A stretch of DNA of 64,000 bases from Clostridiales bacterium. GTDB lineage: Bacteria > Bacillota > Clostridia > Lachnospirales > Lachnospiraceae. The position numbers and the translations under genes were made by a program. This document shows, piece by piece, positions 3,401-43,362 of this stretch. Below the pieces are notes generated by a model. That model made no database searches and was not told where the DNA came from. It saw only the letters and a list, made by a program, of their open reading frames with translations. The stretch covers positions 62,001-126,000 of the forward strand of contig JAATFT010000091.1 in assembly GCA_015655075.1 (NCBI GenBank). Reading direction: 5' to 3'. How positions within the stretch are numbered: position 1 is the first letter of the stretch; each line of letters begins with the position of its first letter.

Positions 3401-4074
3401 GGGGAGATCTGCCCCTGTTTGGAGAAACCGTATCCTATCCTGTAAAACTGTATTATACGGTTATCATTCCGGCAGGTACTTACCGGATATTTAAACCCAC
3501 AGTTTCGGGTGCGGCAAGATTTTTCCTGGACGGCAAAGAAATAGTGTGGAACAAGGTCGTCAAAGAATTAGAAAGGAATGATCAGATCCATACCTTGACA
3601 ATCCAGGTTACGGCCGGGGAAGGAAAGGACGGATTACAGAAACCGGTACGCATCGCCATGAAACCTTTCAAGGTAAATTTAACGGACTGGAGGCAGTTTG
3701 GATTACCCTGGTTTTCCGGCAGGTGTATGTATACCAATACCTTCCATGCCGGCTTAAAAGGACAGAGATATACACTGGACCTTGGCAAGGTCAATTTTTA
3801 TGCTGAAATCTGGATTAACAGAAAGCTTGCGGCTGTTAAAATATGGCCCCCGTATCGTATTGATATCACAGATTTTTTACAGAATGGAGAAAATAAAATT
3901 ACGGTTATAGCCGCTAACTCAGCCGGAAATGCCCGAAGGCATATGCTTGTGGACGAGGGCATGGCATTGGGATGGAACCGGTACTGGAATGAAGATAATA
4001 TGGACAGGGATTGCCAGAACTATGTTTCAGGCTTACTTGGCCCCGTCAGACTTTTATCTGAAAGATATGAATAA
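430..4074 (+). CDS. Large glycoside hydrolase, GH106/alpha-L-rhamnosidase-like with C-terminal beta-sandwich domains
   Basis: 1214 aa; N-terminus FWFLNGELDAAKLKHQIDEMVEKGVYGGFMHPRAYLKTPYLEEEWW and PGIFFDEIY typical of GH106-like proteins; starts 12 bp after the permease. Confidence 0.75.
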   Translation: MDFLEKFQNPDKKYSVLAFWFLNGELDAAKLKHQIDEMVEKGVYGGFMHPRAYLKTPYLEEEWWKAISACIAEAKEKGFAPWLYDEYAWPSGTAGSTFDYGYQKPSRILAKGPVNMAKGLYAKVFEQEQQYGIRALKEPEQPTQATCVTKPSQLPETEKIENPLVQAAYDIKLFQLPETEKEQDPLIQVVERNGKYYAFYLKIFPKAVDYLNPETISNFIELTHEEYKKRYGGEFGGLIPGIFFDEIYMMGNPIPWTESLPARFKEKYGYSLMDELPSLIDGTKEHDKQVRKDYFSLIARMYEEAFFQQISDWCGKNHLLLTGHTEEFLWEHPRRQGNYFKTMRHLMVPGSDCHDYRYRYPRRITYCEPKYSVSVARAYNKERAMSEAMGGAGWNCTLEEFKKGIHTLAAMGINMFILHGFYYECEHQGSQSDWPTSFFYQNPYWKYFREFAGYVQRICYMNSIGRPVVNYGILYPIEDMYEHMLNGEEDRKGRLISNKFHDALNIMLENQLDTDMVDSQCLMNGKISGGELCIGQQKFKLLLLPQGTSLSRELETKLSDWMEQGGKILFYKTDGQSELPETFKACGLCEIPRLPKEAAGLVPPDARVVDKNRENIFINHRELEGYHYYFLSNNREEKKRFTMEFPHSKIPSVLNIETGNTESTIWKAVPDGIEVALTLEANEAVYLIFGLQTVSDVAKDNFAVEPMVKREVVKNAFATESMVKQNIVKDVFTADSMVEREELITGKWSFLPLSPDFDHKWNIDAKETQLEIPLAGFTTDLWEDYSTIRVCNTTQEPGSCDRHVSLWKGRWITRRPSWNDAMNSSDLYFRKLLFIEDGIESADFCMAAIDSFEVFINGSKVFQEESNGRPVNFSLKPYLKPGINLIAMHVINHNPLNDVNVCSAENLPKDRLISLLLQGTVKTAGRDISVISDHTWIVNDIREEGWNQAKRDIESETVDFDVQRIKNFNKKTAEHVWIPAWERGKPPIKPWGDLPLFGETVSYPVKLYYTVIIPAGTYRIFKPTVSGAARFFLDGKEIVWNKVVKELERNDQIHTLTIQVTAGEGKDGLQKPVRIAMKPFKVNLTDWRQFGLPWFSGRCMYTNTFHAGLKGQRYTLDLGKVNFYAEIWINRKLAAVKIWPPYRIDITDFLQNGENKITVIAANSAGNARRHMLVDEGMALGWNRYWNEDNMDRDCQNYVSGLLGPVRLLSERYE
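886..1017 (+). repeat. 66-bp in-frame tandem duplication within the glycosidase gene
   Basis: caattgccgga(g/a)acagaaaaa at 886 and 952; protein QLPETEKIENPLVQ / QLPETEKEQDPLIQ. Confidence 0.8.
2524..2658 (+). repeat. 45-bp in-frame tandem repeat, 3 copies, within the glycosidase gene
   Basis: DNFAVEPMVKREVVK / NAFATESMVKQNIVK / DVFTADSMVEREELI; shared ccatggtt with ATG at 2548, 2593, 2638. Confidence 0.85.
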
Positions 4075-4097
4075 TTTATAACGGTATAATCAAAAAA

Positions 4098-4167
4098 GGT
4101 GCCGCCGTAAAACAGCCTTAATAACCCAATCCTTTTAAGAATAAATTAGGCTATATCAGACGTGGCC
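4098..4167. repeat. ~70-bp MITE-like repeat, copy 1
   Basis: aggtgccgccgtaaaacagcctt...aggctatatcagacgtggcc aligns along its length with 18280-18352. Confidence 0.6.
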
Positions 4168-4186
4168 AAAAACGAAGCAGGGCATT

Positions 4187-5047
4187 TTACATTATAATCG
4201 GCGGTGAAAATACAGCATCTAATTTCTCTCTTAAAAATTTATTTGCAAAAATTAAATCTTCCTGCCAATTATTCGAACCTTGATACCAGAATTCTCCCAC
4301 AAACATTTTTACATTAAAATCCCTCAGTAATGTTAAGGGTGCAATATAGTCTGTGTGGCCGGTACCGAATGGAATATTTCTGTAATGCCCAGGCAATGTC
4401 TCTTTTAAATGTGCAGCGAATATATGTCCTTCCCCGGTACGGATATCTTCCGCTACACTTTTGCCATATATCAGGCCTGCATTGGTAAGATTTCCGATAT
4501 CCGGATATATTCCCAGATATGGGCTGTTAATCAGTTTCACATATTTCATAGCTTTCTCCACTGTATCCATAAATGGAGTCTCCATTGTCTCAAAACCCAT
4601 ATTAATTCCTCTGGAAGCAGCCATTTTACTCGCTTTCTTTAAGTTTTCCGCAAACATCTGTCTTGTATCGTCTGTCCCTTCTTCATAATATACATCATAT
4701 CCGGCTAATTGGATAATTCTGATTCCCATATCAGCAGCTAAATCAATTGCTTTCTCCATAATTTCCAGGCCTCTTGCCCTTATATTATTATTTATGCTTC
4801 CAAAGGGATATTTTCTATGACCGCTTAGGCACATAGAACAGATTGGCATCCCGATTTCATACATTGTCTCTCTTATACAGCACCGTTCTGCAGCAGACCA
4901 ATCCAGTCTTCCAAGCTTTTCATCGGATTCATCTATACTGATTTCCAGATAATCAAAACCCGCTTTTTTCCCAATGGATAATTTCTCCGACCATGACAGG
5001 ATTCCCGGCATGGATTTTTCATATAAACCTAAATTATATTCCTTCAT
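4187..5047 (-). CDS. ulaE: L-xylulose/L-ribulose-5-phosphate 3-epimerase, UlaE-like
   Basis: MKEYNLGLYEKSMPGILSWSEKLSIGKKAGFDYLEISIDESDEKLGRLDW; AP-endonuclease-2/TIM barrel family; internal Met chosen as start. Confidence 0.85.
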   Translation of the reverse strand: MKEYNLGLYEKSMPGILSWSEKLSIGKKAGFDYLEISIDESDEKLGRLDWSAAERCCIRETMYEIGMPICSMCLSGHRKYPFGSINNNIRARGLEIMEKAIDLAADMGIRIIQLAGYDVYYEEGTDDTRQMFAENLKKASKMAASRGINMGFETMETPFMDTVEKAMKYVKLINSPYLGIYPDIGNLTNAGLIYGKSVAEDIRTGEGHIFAAHLKETLPGHYRNIPFGTGHTDYIAPLTLLRDFNVKMFVGEFWYQGSNNWQEDLIFANKFLREKLDAVFSPPIIM

Positions 5048-5136
5048 TAGAACCTCCTCCAGCACAGCCGACGTTTGCACGGCATTAAAACAATCGGCAC
5101 TCTTTCCGTTTTAAATCCTCGTACATAAATTACCTC

Positions 5137-6183
5137 CTAATTTTCTGTAAAATAATACAGAGCAGCTTCGTTTCTCGTATGATTTGCAGCAATCAGAATA
5201 TCCCGATCCCCCTGATGCACAACAGCGACATTGGCTGTGCCCGCACCTTTTTCAATAATCGTCAAATCATATTCACCAGATTGTCCGTTATACTTAACGT
5301 AATACAGATCACAATTTTCACGGCGGTTACCTACCACCGCAACCGGTGTCTTACATAATTTTCCTGCCCATAAGGCGTGTGCAAAATCATTGTTACGGTC
5401 ACACTGCCAGACAACTTTATATCTGCCGTCAATAAACTTATGAATCTTTACTTCTTTTCCATGGAAGGGTCCGATAGTAACCAATTCATCCACTCCGTCT
5501 CCATCTAAATCAAATACTGCCACATCGCTGGTTGGTTCCTCCAAAATCGCAGCAACTATCCAATCTTCTCCGGATGCTTTCGGTGGTGTAACTGCAAAAA
5601 CTCCTTCCTCACTGGTTACAAATCCACTTTCCCTTCCTTTATAAGTACCATGCCAGTATCCATGATTTTTATTCAAACCTTCTTTTAACACTCTTAACTC
5701 CAATTCTTGATTTAGATCTGACGGCATGGGTGCTACATAGATCTTCCCCGGATCCGACCAGTCATTGCGGTCTTTTTTGGAGCCGCATAAGGTTGCGCCT
5801 ATAAAATAAAGTGTTCTATCGGACTGCAATAAATCAAAACGGTGTAAATAAGGTAATTTCAGAAAATCCTGATATACATACCTGTTATTTTCGTAACGCA
5901 CCCATACTACTTTGGATTCTAAAGAATTAAATCCCGGAAAAAAATTCTGGGTTGCAAGAAATTCTCCACTGCGGCCTGGAATTTCTACCATGCTCATAGT
6001 CCCGCCATCCCTCTCCCAAACCAGCTGCTTCTTTTCAAAGTTTTCACCGCTATATGCAAAGCAGGGTCCGCCAATTGCTTCACTTGCCAGCAATATATGA
6101 GGCTCCCCCTTTACATTTACACAAGACGTGGAATAGCATCTTTCCATATTATCTAAAAATTTTTTTTCAAATTTCATATCCAA
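5137..6183 (-). CDS. FG-GAP/VCBS repeat-like protein of unknown function within the ula cluster
   Basis: VAVFDLDGDGVDELVTIGPFHGKEVKIHKF motif; 348 aa. Confidence 0.6.
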   Translation of the reverse strand: MDMKFEKKFLDNMERCYSTSCVNVKGEPHILLASEAIGGPCFAYSGENFEKKQLVWERDGGTMSMVEIPGRSGEFLATQNFFPGFNSLESKVVWVRYENNRYVYQDFLKLPYLHRFDLLQSDRTLYFIGATLCGSKKDRNDWSDPGKIYVAPMPSDLNQELELRVLKEGLNKNHGYWHGTYKGRESGFVTSEEGVFAVTPPKASGEDWIVAAILEEPTSDVAVFDLDGDGVDELVTIGPFHGKEVKIHKFIDGRYKVVWQCDRNNDFAHALWAGKLCKTPVAVVGNRRENCDLYYVKYNGQSGEYDLTIIEKGAGTANVAVVHQGDRDILIAANHTRNEAALYYFTEN

Positions 6184-39879: not shown

Positions 39880-40515
39880 TCATTGTGCAAATGACATTTG
39901 ATTGTATATATTGTAAATGTGATTTTCAATAACAGCTTTCGCATTATTGAGATCTCTTTTTTGCAAGCAATCCATCAAACGAGAATGTTCTTCCACGGCT
40001 TTTATCTGGTCTCGGGATTCAGGCGGTAATACCAGATAACTTGCAACTAAGTATTTCCCTTGTACCTTTCTATATATATCCGACAAATATGCATTTTGAG
40101 CACCACTGATTAATATCCTATGGAAATGTAAATCCTCTTTTGACATTTCCAAATATTTTTTATTGCTGTATTCTTCGCAAAGCAAGGCGCTTTTTTCTAA
40201 TTCCTTAAAAATCACTTTATTATCTGGATCAATCATATCTAATGCATTCTTTTCTAATAATAATCTTACTTCCACGATTTCTTTTACTTGTTGGTCATCA
40301 AAGCTAGGCACATATAGACGCCCATTGGATTTGATTTCTAATATTCCATCCATATTTAGCAACTTTGCGGCCTGACTAATTGGGGTGCGGCTCACATTGA
40401 ATTTCTCTACCAGATCGTCTAAAAGTATTTGCTGGCCCATAACATATTCGCCGGCAATTAAGCTATCAATAATTTTTTCATACAATATAATATCTAAGTT
40501 CTTTTTAATTCCCAT
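39880..40515 (-). CDS. GntR-family regulator (FCD/FadR-like)
   Basis: LLDDLVEKFNVSRTPISQAAKLLNMDGILEIKSNGRLYVPS; FCD-like C-domain. Confidence 0.9.
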   Translation of the reverse strand: MGIKKNLDIILYEKIIDSLIAGEYVMGQQILLDDLVEKFNVSRTPISQAAKLLNMDGILEIKSNGRLYVPSFDDQQVKEIVEVRLLLEKNALDMIDPDNKVIFKELEKSALLCEEYSNKKYLEMSKEDLHFHRILISGAQNAYLSDIYRKVQGKYLVASYLVLPPESRDQIKAVEEHSRLMDCLQKRDLNNAKAVIENHIYNIYNQMSFAQ

Positions 40516-40692
40516 ATTTCCAATTTCCTTCCGCTTAAAAAATTTAATATTTTTTATATTTTTATTATAGAACATTGTTATGCAAATTGCAATATAATTC
40601 AAATATTAATCAATTATTTTTAATGTATTTTTATCTATCTTATAAAATTTTACAATTATGTTTGTTAAATTTTAGTCAATATGTATATTTAT

Positions 40693-41973
40693 TTAATTAA
40701 TGAATCCTCCTTTTTCATCAAATTGTAATATTGCCGGTTCGTTTTCTATTTCAAGTTTCGGATGTGATTTGGAAATGGAATAGTATGCTTCTGACAGCAT
40801 AATATGCTCCAAGTGAAGAGTATTCGCAATTCTAACAATTTTTATATTCTTCGTATCTATTCCGACGCATGTCTTAATGCACATTTGTATTGCTTCTTTT
40901 TCATTTTCAACGATACATGGGATTTTGGAAGATACTAATGCCGTAGTTGTGATTGCATTCAGGTACATAGCCTCCAAATCCAAATCGTAAAATACTTTTT
41001 GGGGAATTACATCGCACATCCCAATCCCAATGCCGTTCCCCTTCGTCTCATCACTTAACGCAAGTACCGCAACACGCTGGGATTTGATTCCACCGTTGGC
41101 GTAAGGTGTGTCAAAAGTTCCTGTAATATTGGGATCCATACCGCTCCCACTATAATTCTTGCCTATCTCATCTACGATCAACACGTCACATTCATCCAGA
41201 TATATTCTGGGCATGAATCCATATGCCTCCTTTAACAGCTGCGGCTCTTTTTTCTCAATTTCGTCTGAATTCAAGGCGACGATTTTGCATGTCTCATCAA
41301 ATGCGTTCTCCAATGCTGCGACGGCAAATAATATGTTGGATTGCTCGATAATAGCCTTTCCGAATAAATACACGTTTTTTGCCATGTTTTCAAACCCTTG
41401 TGCATGGCAAGTCTCGGCTCCTTTTCGTTTTCCCAAACCGATTGCCATCATTTTCATAATTCCACTTTCATATGGCCCGCAAAATGAAGTATGGGGTTTG
41501 ATTCGATTAAATACAATAATTCCATCTGCCTGAGCGGCATGCTTGTCAATCCAGACATCGAGCCCTTCTTCATTTACACCGATTTTAACTACCTCCATGG
41601 AGGAAATGATAGGGCAGCCACAAAATTCTTTCGTTACTCCATAGGATTCCAAAATCTTCTGCTGACCTTCTGCCAAAGAACTTCCATGGCTTCCCATTGC
41701 AGGTACAATAAAGGGGAAAGCTCCCTTTTTGCGGACAAATTCAGCGATGGCTCTGATAATAACCGCCAGATTCGCGACTCCTCGACTTCCGGCTGTAATG
41801 GCAATCTTCATGTCTTTTTTTATTTGATTCGAAAATTTCTCTTCTGATAAAAGGGCAACAATTGTTGCAGGAATGGTATCAATCTCAATTCTGGAACATT
41901 CAAACTTTTGCCTTACGCAAAACATTTTTGGAATTTCAACATCCCTTAACAATTCCGAAATTCTTCCCCTCAT
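40693..41973 (-). CDS. LarA-like (DUF2088, nickel-dependent lactate racemase family) protein
   Basis: IAITAGSRGVANLAVIIRAIAEFVRKKGAFPFIVPAMGSHGSSLAEGQQKILESYGV; NRIKPHTSFCGPYESGIMKMMAIGLGKRKGAETCH. Confidence 0.8.
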   Translation of the reverse strand: MRGRISELLRDVEIPKMFCVRQKFECSRIEIDTIPATIVALLSEEKFSNQIKKDMKIAITAGSRGVANLAVIIRAIAEFVRKKGAFPFIVPAMGSHGSSLAEGQQKILESYGVTKEFCGCPIISSMEVVKIGVNEEGLDVWIDKHAAQADGIIVFNRIKPHTSFCGPYESGIMKMMAIGLGKRKGAETCHAQGFENMAKNVYLFGKAIIEQSNILFAVAALENAFDETCKIVALNSDEIEKKEPQLLKEAYGFMPRIYLDECDVLIVDEIGKNYSGSGMDPNITGTFDTPYANGGIKSQRVAVLALSDETKGNGIGIGMCDVIPQKVFYDLDLEAMYLNAITTTALVSSKIPCIVENEKEAIQMCIKTCVGIDTKNIKIVRIANTLHLEHIMLSEAYYSISKSHPKLEIENEPAILQFDEKGGFIN

Positions 41974-42000: not shown

Positions 42001-42133
42001 TTACTCGGATTCATTAATCATACCAAGGTCAAAGACCTGCTTAATTCTTTTCATAGTCAGCATCTGGGTATTGCCAAGCCGTCCCTGCAGATATGGTTTC
42101 AGGGCCTTGTTTAATACAGACTAGGATTTTCAT
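42001..42133 (-). pseudogene. Deletion relic: EtfB N-terminus joined to a GlcD/LDH-like C-terminus
   Basis: AGAGGAG-N5-ATG, MKILVCIKQGPET (EtfB start); another frame LKPYLQGRLGNTQMLTMKRIKQVFDLGMINESE* resembles FAD-oxidase C-termini (..lMrrIKqafDP.gimNPGk). Confidence 0.55.
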
Positions 42134-42408
42134 AGGTATGTCTCCTCTTATTAACCATGCAATTCTATTATGCAATATTGAAGTAACTATCTATATCCAA
42201 ATTATATTTTTATTTATTCTGTATATATTTTTTTATTTTTTTCTATTTTATTATAATATTCATATAAAATTTTGTCAATATATTTTAAATTTTTTATTTA
42301 AAATATATTTTAAGAAGCATTGGACAAAACATATACGATGATTACTTACTTCTTTTACCTGCAATTATTTTATTTAATTATTCTGAGTTTCCAATTATCA
42401 TATTCTAG

Positions 42409-42512
42409 AAACGCAAACTCTGCGCTGACGCTTGGTCGCTTCGCGACATAATTCCTTACAAGCGTCATGCGCATCCTCACGGAGTGTTTTTTATTGTATA
42501 GGACAGCATTGT
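42409..42512 (+). repeat. Dispersed structured repeat 'GCGCAT-AAGCG', copy 3
   Basis: gcaaactctgcgctgacgcttggtcgcttcgcgacataattccttacaagcgtcatgcgcatcctc; nested stems gacgcttg/caagcgtc and gtcgc/gcgac. Confidence 0.8.
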
Positions 42513-42600
42513 AGAGTAGTCCAGAGGTCGTAAGACCTCTTTTCCCTCATCAAACCGTACGTGAAGTTTTCCCTCATACGGCTTTCCGACATTCTTCTTT
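42510..42600 (-). mobile_element. Group II intron 3' remnant (domain V + domain VI)
   Basis: Reverse strand 42585-42552 = AAAGCCGTATGAGGGAAAACTTCACGTACGGTTT, 34 nt, DV-like with AGC triad; followed by AGAGGTC-TTAC-GACCTCT (DVI). Confidence 0.75.
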
Positions 42601-42768
42601 CTACAGCTTTACGTCATGCAGTCATTTTCTGCAAACCTTTTTCTTTCAATATCAGATTAATTTTACTTAGTCCTTTCAAACTTCTGCTTCTCTGATGTTT
42701 GTCAATCAGGAAGCATTCGGGAAGAATCAAACAGTTCCCGCAAAATCTCTTCCGCAATGCATGCCTCG

Positions 42769-43061
42769 CTATTTTGAAAGTAAATCCTGATCCCAGCCCA
42801 CCTTAATAAAATATCCGCCGAACTGGTCATTAAATACCTTTTCTGTCTCCGGTGTCTGGAAAGCCTGTACTACTTTCTTATATCTTTCAACTTTAGACGA
42901 ATCCTCAAGGTCAGCACTTCTGGCTGCTATCAGATTCCAATAATTCTCTTCCATAAGACTTGTTATCCGCAAATATCGCATCCTGTGTCTTAACTCCGAA
43001 ATCAAGTGCATAATTACCGTTTATAATGGCTGCAGTCACATCCGGAAGGGCTGACAGAATG
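42769..43061 (-). pseudogene. MetQ/NlpA-family lipoprotein C-terminal fragment with frameshift
   Basis: ALPDVTAAIINGNYALDFGVKTQDAIFADNK then, in another frame, YWNLIAARSADLEDSSKVERYKKVVQAFQTPETEKVFNDQFGGYFIKVGW. Confidence 0.8.
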
Positions 43062-43103
43062 GTCGAGTAGACGAGCCCTTTACAGGGCACGTCTACTCGA
43101 CCA
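43062..43103. repeat. Long near-perfect palindrome
   Basis: ggtcgagtagacgagccc-tttaca-gggcacgtctactcgacc; 18-bp arms with one mismatch. Confidence 0.85.
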
Positions 43104-43291
43104 AAAATTATCCTTGCTTATAAAGGATAATTCTTTGTTTGTTTCTGACGAAATGTTTTCACCCCTCCTCAAAGTACGCGGAAGTACCAGAAAGCTGACA
43201 TCGTTAATAAACCGTTCGTTTTGTTCCTCCGCTTTGCAATCTGACTGATTTTGCGCTGATTTAGCCGATTTTTCCACTACTACCACTCTCT

Positions 43292-43362
43292 CAAAATCGC
43301 TCCTTGCCTCCCACAAAGTGGAGCATCCAGCCCGGCATAAGCATTTTTCAAACACACTCTAG
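43292..43362. repeat. MITE (TAGAGYGTGTTTGAAAAAT terminus), well-preserved half, copy B
   Basis: caaaatcgctccttgcctcccacaaagtggagcatccagcccggcataagcatttttcaaacacactcta; one mismatch to 60812-60881. Confidence 0.85.

Follow-up and report, generated by a model that had tools for sequence, protein, structure and literature searches.

A probable remnant of a second etfB-etfA-glcD operon lies upstream of a group 22 nickel-pincer-cofactor isomerase gene in a Clostridiales genome

The 133 bases at 42001-42133 (minus strand) of the window, by which we mean the whole 64,000-nucleotide stretch of DNA that was analysed, join the start of EtfB to the end of GlcD/LctD. They are the remnant of an etfB-etfA-lctD operon and not a working member of that family. 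Very probably, a second, paralogous etfB-etfA-glcD operon of the flavin-based, lactate-dehydrogenase type lost about 3.2 kb from its interior by deletion and left this scar. The elements of the scar and the genes that follow it are:

42095..42133, minus strand: EtfB N-terminal remnant of 13 codons (MKILVCIKQGPET) behind the ribosome-binding site AGAGGAGA, recognised by the EtfB HMM and resembling the bases of etfB in a congener
42001..42105, minus strand: C-terminal remnant of a GlcD/LctD-type FAD oxidase, in a frame different from that of the EtfB piece and with its own stop, recognised by the GlcD HMM
42095..42105, minus strand: putative deletion junction zone, which reads as EtfB (CCT GAA ACC) or as GlcD (CTG AAA CCA), with GAAACC as candidate microhomology
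40693..41973, minus strand: apparently intact nickel-pincer-cofactor isomerase, group 22 (LarA superfamily), with its own ribosome-binding site, 27 nt after the stop of the scar
39880..40602, minus strand: GntR/FCD-family regulator, downstream of the isomerase

The ATG of the scar occupies 42133-42131, after AGAGGAGA, and opens a frame that reads MKILVCIKQGPETISAGTAWQYPDADYEKN and reaches its stop after 30 codons. The minus-strand bases from 42133 (ATG AAA ATC CTA GTC TGT ATT AAA CAA GGC CCT GAA ACC) encode MKILVCIKQGPET. A second minus-strand frame reads LKPYLQGRLGNTQMLTMKRIKQVFDLGMINESE up to a stop at 42003-42001; within it, GlcD code is recognisable from about 42105 and reads ALKPYLQGRLGNTQMLTMKRIKQVFDLGMINESE. 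The EtfB homology proved slightly longer than the initial annotation had stated, extending to MKILVCIKQ-x-PET, so that the two halves have a few bases in common where they meet. The EtfB and GlcD pieces abut and etfA is absent between them. The catalytic parts of the lost oxidase are deleted, and the scar encodes no working enzyme, at most a meaningless peptide of 30 residues.

Two profile HMMs, one built from 31 N-termini of EtfB and the other from 24 GlcD-type C-termini, all taken from related genomes, were used to assess the homology of the two halves, and the 64 kb window was scanned with each in all six frames. The EtfB model matched codons 1-13 of the scar with 24.2 bits (E 4.1e-6) and the GlcD model matched 42105-42016 with 28.8 bits (E 1.6e-7), and neither model had another significant match in the window. 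The scar itself had been the query that brought in one of the EtfB and five of the GlcD training sequences. As this made the comparison partly circular, the HMMs were rebuilt without these six. The rebuilt EtfB model gave 24.0 bits at 42133-42095 (E 4.8e-6; next match in the window, 4.7) and the rebuilt GlcD model 25.5 bits at about 42105-42001 (E 1.6e-6; next match, 6.2). By comparison, 40 random windows of similar dinucleotide composition scored at most 10.4 and 12.7, respectively, so a chance resemblance was rejected. These independent models bear out what had initially been read from the letters, namely an EtfB start behind a ribosome-binding site and ATG and, in another frame, the C-terminus of a GlcD/D-lactate dehydrogenase. 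The two halves are EtfB and GlcD, in this order and on the minus strand. When the GlcD tail was searched in 299 genomes of the family, five matches were obtained beyond the scar site; they were individually weak (E 0.006-0.09), and each of the five lay at the end of an open frame (475-500 aa) matching GlcD. The bare tail of 33 residues had no match in plasmids, Pfam or PDB, as expected for such a short query.

A complete GntR-etfB-etfA-glcD cluster, with the gene order that the scar requires, is present on contig C13 of the same genome, which also holds both of the PF01012 matches in the genome. The GlcD of this cluster aligned over its full length with LctD from the lactate dehydrogenase complex of known structure (7qh2 chain C; 668 bits), and most congeners likewise carry etfA followed by glcD. 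The tail of the C13 GlcD (KKSYLLEAMDPAAVEIMRGIKRAFDPKNILNPHK) is clearly different from that of the scar, indicating that the scar is the remainder of a second operon. For the same reason, the possibility that it represents a collapsed or duplicated copy of the C13 operon was disfavoured. Since an intact LctBCD-type operon is kept on C13, the organism did not lose its only copy.

Given the order and strand of etfB-etfA-glcD, one internal deletion is a simple account of the join. We infer a single event that would have run from about codon 13 of etfB to about 35 codons before the end of glcD, so that the promoter, ribosome-binding site and start codon of etfB now stand directly before the glcD end, which is in a different frame. 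When the C13 operon was used as a ruler, the points equivalent to the ends of the scar were 3247 bp apart, from which the size of the deletion is estimated. Its endpoints were possibly short repeats containing GAAACC. Where the halves meet, the bases CCTGAAACCA agree with etfB of congener G002 and are equally readable as GlcD code, so that the deletion may have taken place at short repeats, with a candidate microhomology at the join. The initial annotation had proposed the internal deletion of an lctBCD-like operon; the ends, order and orientation of the scar fit the operons of C13 and of the congeners, while the accompanying link to lactate racemisation was not supported, as described below.

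The same join could in principle have arisen by recombination between two operons, with etfB coming from one and glcD from another. The GlcD tail of the scar is nearer to GlcD proteins from other genera (e.g., G035, 55% identity) than to the genome's own C13 copy, and the parent operon has not been seen, both of which would suit such an exchange. However, order and strand are exactly those expected from an internal deletion of the common etfB-etfA-glcD arrangement and recombination would demand one extra event, making this origin unlikely.

Intact relatives of the operon were sought at loci of the isomerase family. An etfBA-glcD set preceding the isomerase was found in none of 80 loci with flanks of up to 6 kb, some of which end at contig edges, and in none of 29 further loci with about 1.5 kb of flank. 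The ancestral operon was not recovered at the scar site by DNA search of 60 relatives, nor by isomerase searches of the genus, the family and a GTDB species collection, nor by the GlcD-tail search of the 299 family genomes. With no intact operon found in the available flanks of about 109 homologous loci, the ancestral arrangement is unattested. Altogether, the internal deletion is well supported as the probable origin of the scar, and it would represent ordinary genome decay.

A separate internal deletion is present in the lct operon of congener G006, where etfB is intact, etfA breaks off at about codon 261 and only the last 125 codons of glcD follow:

G006:C1:4934000-4944000 (locus L135), 3511-5475: lctBCD operon with an internal deletion, truncated etfA joined to the glcD end

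In several congeners (loci L109, L110, L114, L115 and L116), etfA and glcD appear to lie 60-290 bases further apart than in other congeners, and something may have been inserted between them; the 84-base repeat found in the window and listed below had no match in these five loci.

On its upstream side, the scar is flanked by 1.6 kb that amount to a graveyard of genes. The features recognised upstream of the scar are:

42250..42278, minus strand: consensus sigma-70 promoter sequence TTGACA-17-TATAAT (12/12 matches), upstream of the scar, with a putative promoter function
42511..42586, minus strand: 3′ end (domains V-VI) of a truncated group II intron in the decayed flank
42769..43011, minus strand: C-terminal fragment of an NlpA/MetQ lipoprotein, a weak match just under the Pfam cutoff
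43060-43103: 20-nt inverted repeat
43279-43362, minus strand: dispersed 84-base repeat with about 40 further matches in the genome (89-99% identity)

No second copy of the intron stretch at 42511..42586 was found in the genome. The coding part of the intron seems largely lost, and what may be a leftover of the C-terminus of the intron protein was noticed by eye at about 42600-42770. Some copies of the 84-base repeat are paired nearby in opposite orientation. A rarer second repeat, at 42410-42504, has one counterpart on contig C36 (about 89% identity) and another on contig C74 (75%).

An eroding flank makes the deletion of the operon a more natural reading, and it also bears on whether the join could be an assembly artefact. 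The genome is a draft of 98 contigs with an estimated completeness of 79% and the join is not present in any second genome, as an artefact would predict. Nevertheless, neither half of the scar is close to the intact C13 copy, so the scar is not a chimera of the C13 operon, and other remnants lie beside it, as expected in a region that is really decaying. An artefact is thus very improbable.

The promoter sequence at 42250..42278 probably belonged to the old operon. After the deletion, it would read through a leader of about 270 nt directly into the isomerase operon, covering the isomerase, the GntR regulator, an Ldh_2-type dehydrogenase, an iron-containing alcohol dehydrogenase and an ABC transporter. 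Based on this arrangement, it is likely that the promoter now transcribes the isomerase operon. That the 30-residue ORF starting with EtfB works as a leader peptide or small protein is scarcely credible despite its promoter-like sequence, ribosome-binding site and ATG all being in place, as past residue 13 it consists of out-of-frame GlcD code and it was found in no other genome searched.

The gene following the scar had been described initially as a LarA-like racemase. It scored 523.5 bits against the NCBIfam model NF052515, 'nickel pincer cofactor-dependent isomerase, group 22' (cutoff 400), and 17.8 bits against the lactate racemase model, below its cutoff of 460, and its assignment as a lactate racemase LarA was therefore rejected. 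The isomerase looks intact. Residues H96, H161, K174 and H190 were invariant in 77 sequences and, taken by position, would correspond to the two catalytic histidines, the cofactor lysine and the nickel ligand. The 27-nt gap that separates it from the scar is operon-like. Of the proteins that make the nickel-pincer cofactor (LarB, LarC and LarE), a LarE-type gene is encoded in the genome; LarC was not found in this assembly, which is about 79% complete. The isomerase was absent from the other genomes of the genus searched, and the texts searched on the LarA superfamily contained nothing on group 22 under that name.

Regarding the genomic context of the isomerase homologues, their neighbours resemble, with names assigned by eye, polyol dehydrogenases and relatives of altronate dehydratase or tagaturonate reductase, together with TRAP and branched-chain-type ABC transporters. 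No Etf or GlcD genes were found near them in the 80 loci with flanks of up to 6 kb or in the 29 loci with about 1.5 kb, indicating that the isomerase and the lost oxidase need not have been functional partners. A closer relationship, in which the lost operon encoded an Etf-coupled 2-hydroxyacid (perhaps sugar-acid) dehydrogenase that partnered the group 22 isomerase and the deletion rewired its promoter onto the isomerase, is rather doubtful; this association was not seen in the loci examined.

These results add another case in which a redundant operon for an Etf-linked dehydrogenase apparently disappeared through internal deletion and a paralogue was kept, and they caution that the isomerase next to the scar should not be taken for a lactate racemase. 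Otherwise, the locus illustrates routine genome decay.

Among the known systems, gut Anaerobutyricum and Anaerostipes carry lct clusters in which Etf genes, an FAD-type lactate dehydrogenase and a LarA-superfamily gene occur together, listed in the order permease-lctD-lctB-lctC-lctG-lctF, and whose racemase is described as a lactate racemase (PMC8914356, PMC7702098). This order cannot yield the scar by one deletion. In contrast to the lactate racemase of those clusters, the gene adjacent to the scar is a group 22 isomerase (NF052515), a group whose usual neighbours look by eye like sugar-acid and polyol enzymes and transporters. The LctBCD operon of Acetobacterium woodii, which encodes an electron-confurcating lactate dehydrogenase, shares with the scar its first and last gene products and has the same etfB-etfA-ldh order. 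The C13 copy in the genome that carries the scar is a close relative of Acetobacterium LctBCD, whereas at the scar about 13 codons of etfB and about 35 codons of glcD are left of such an operon and etfA is gone.
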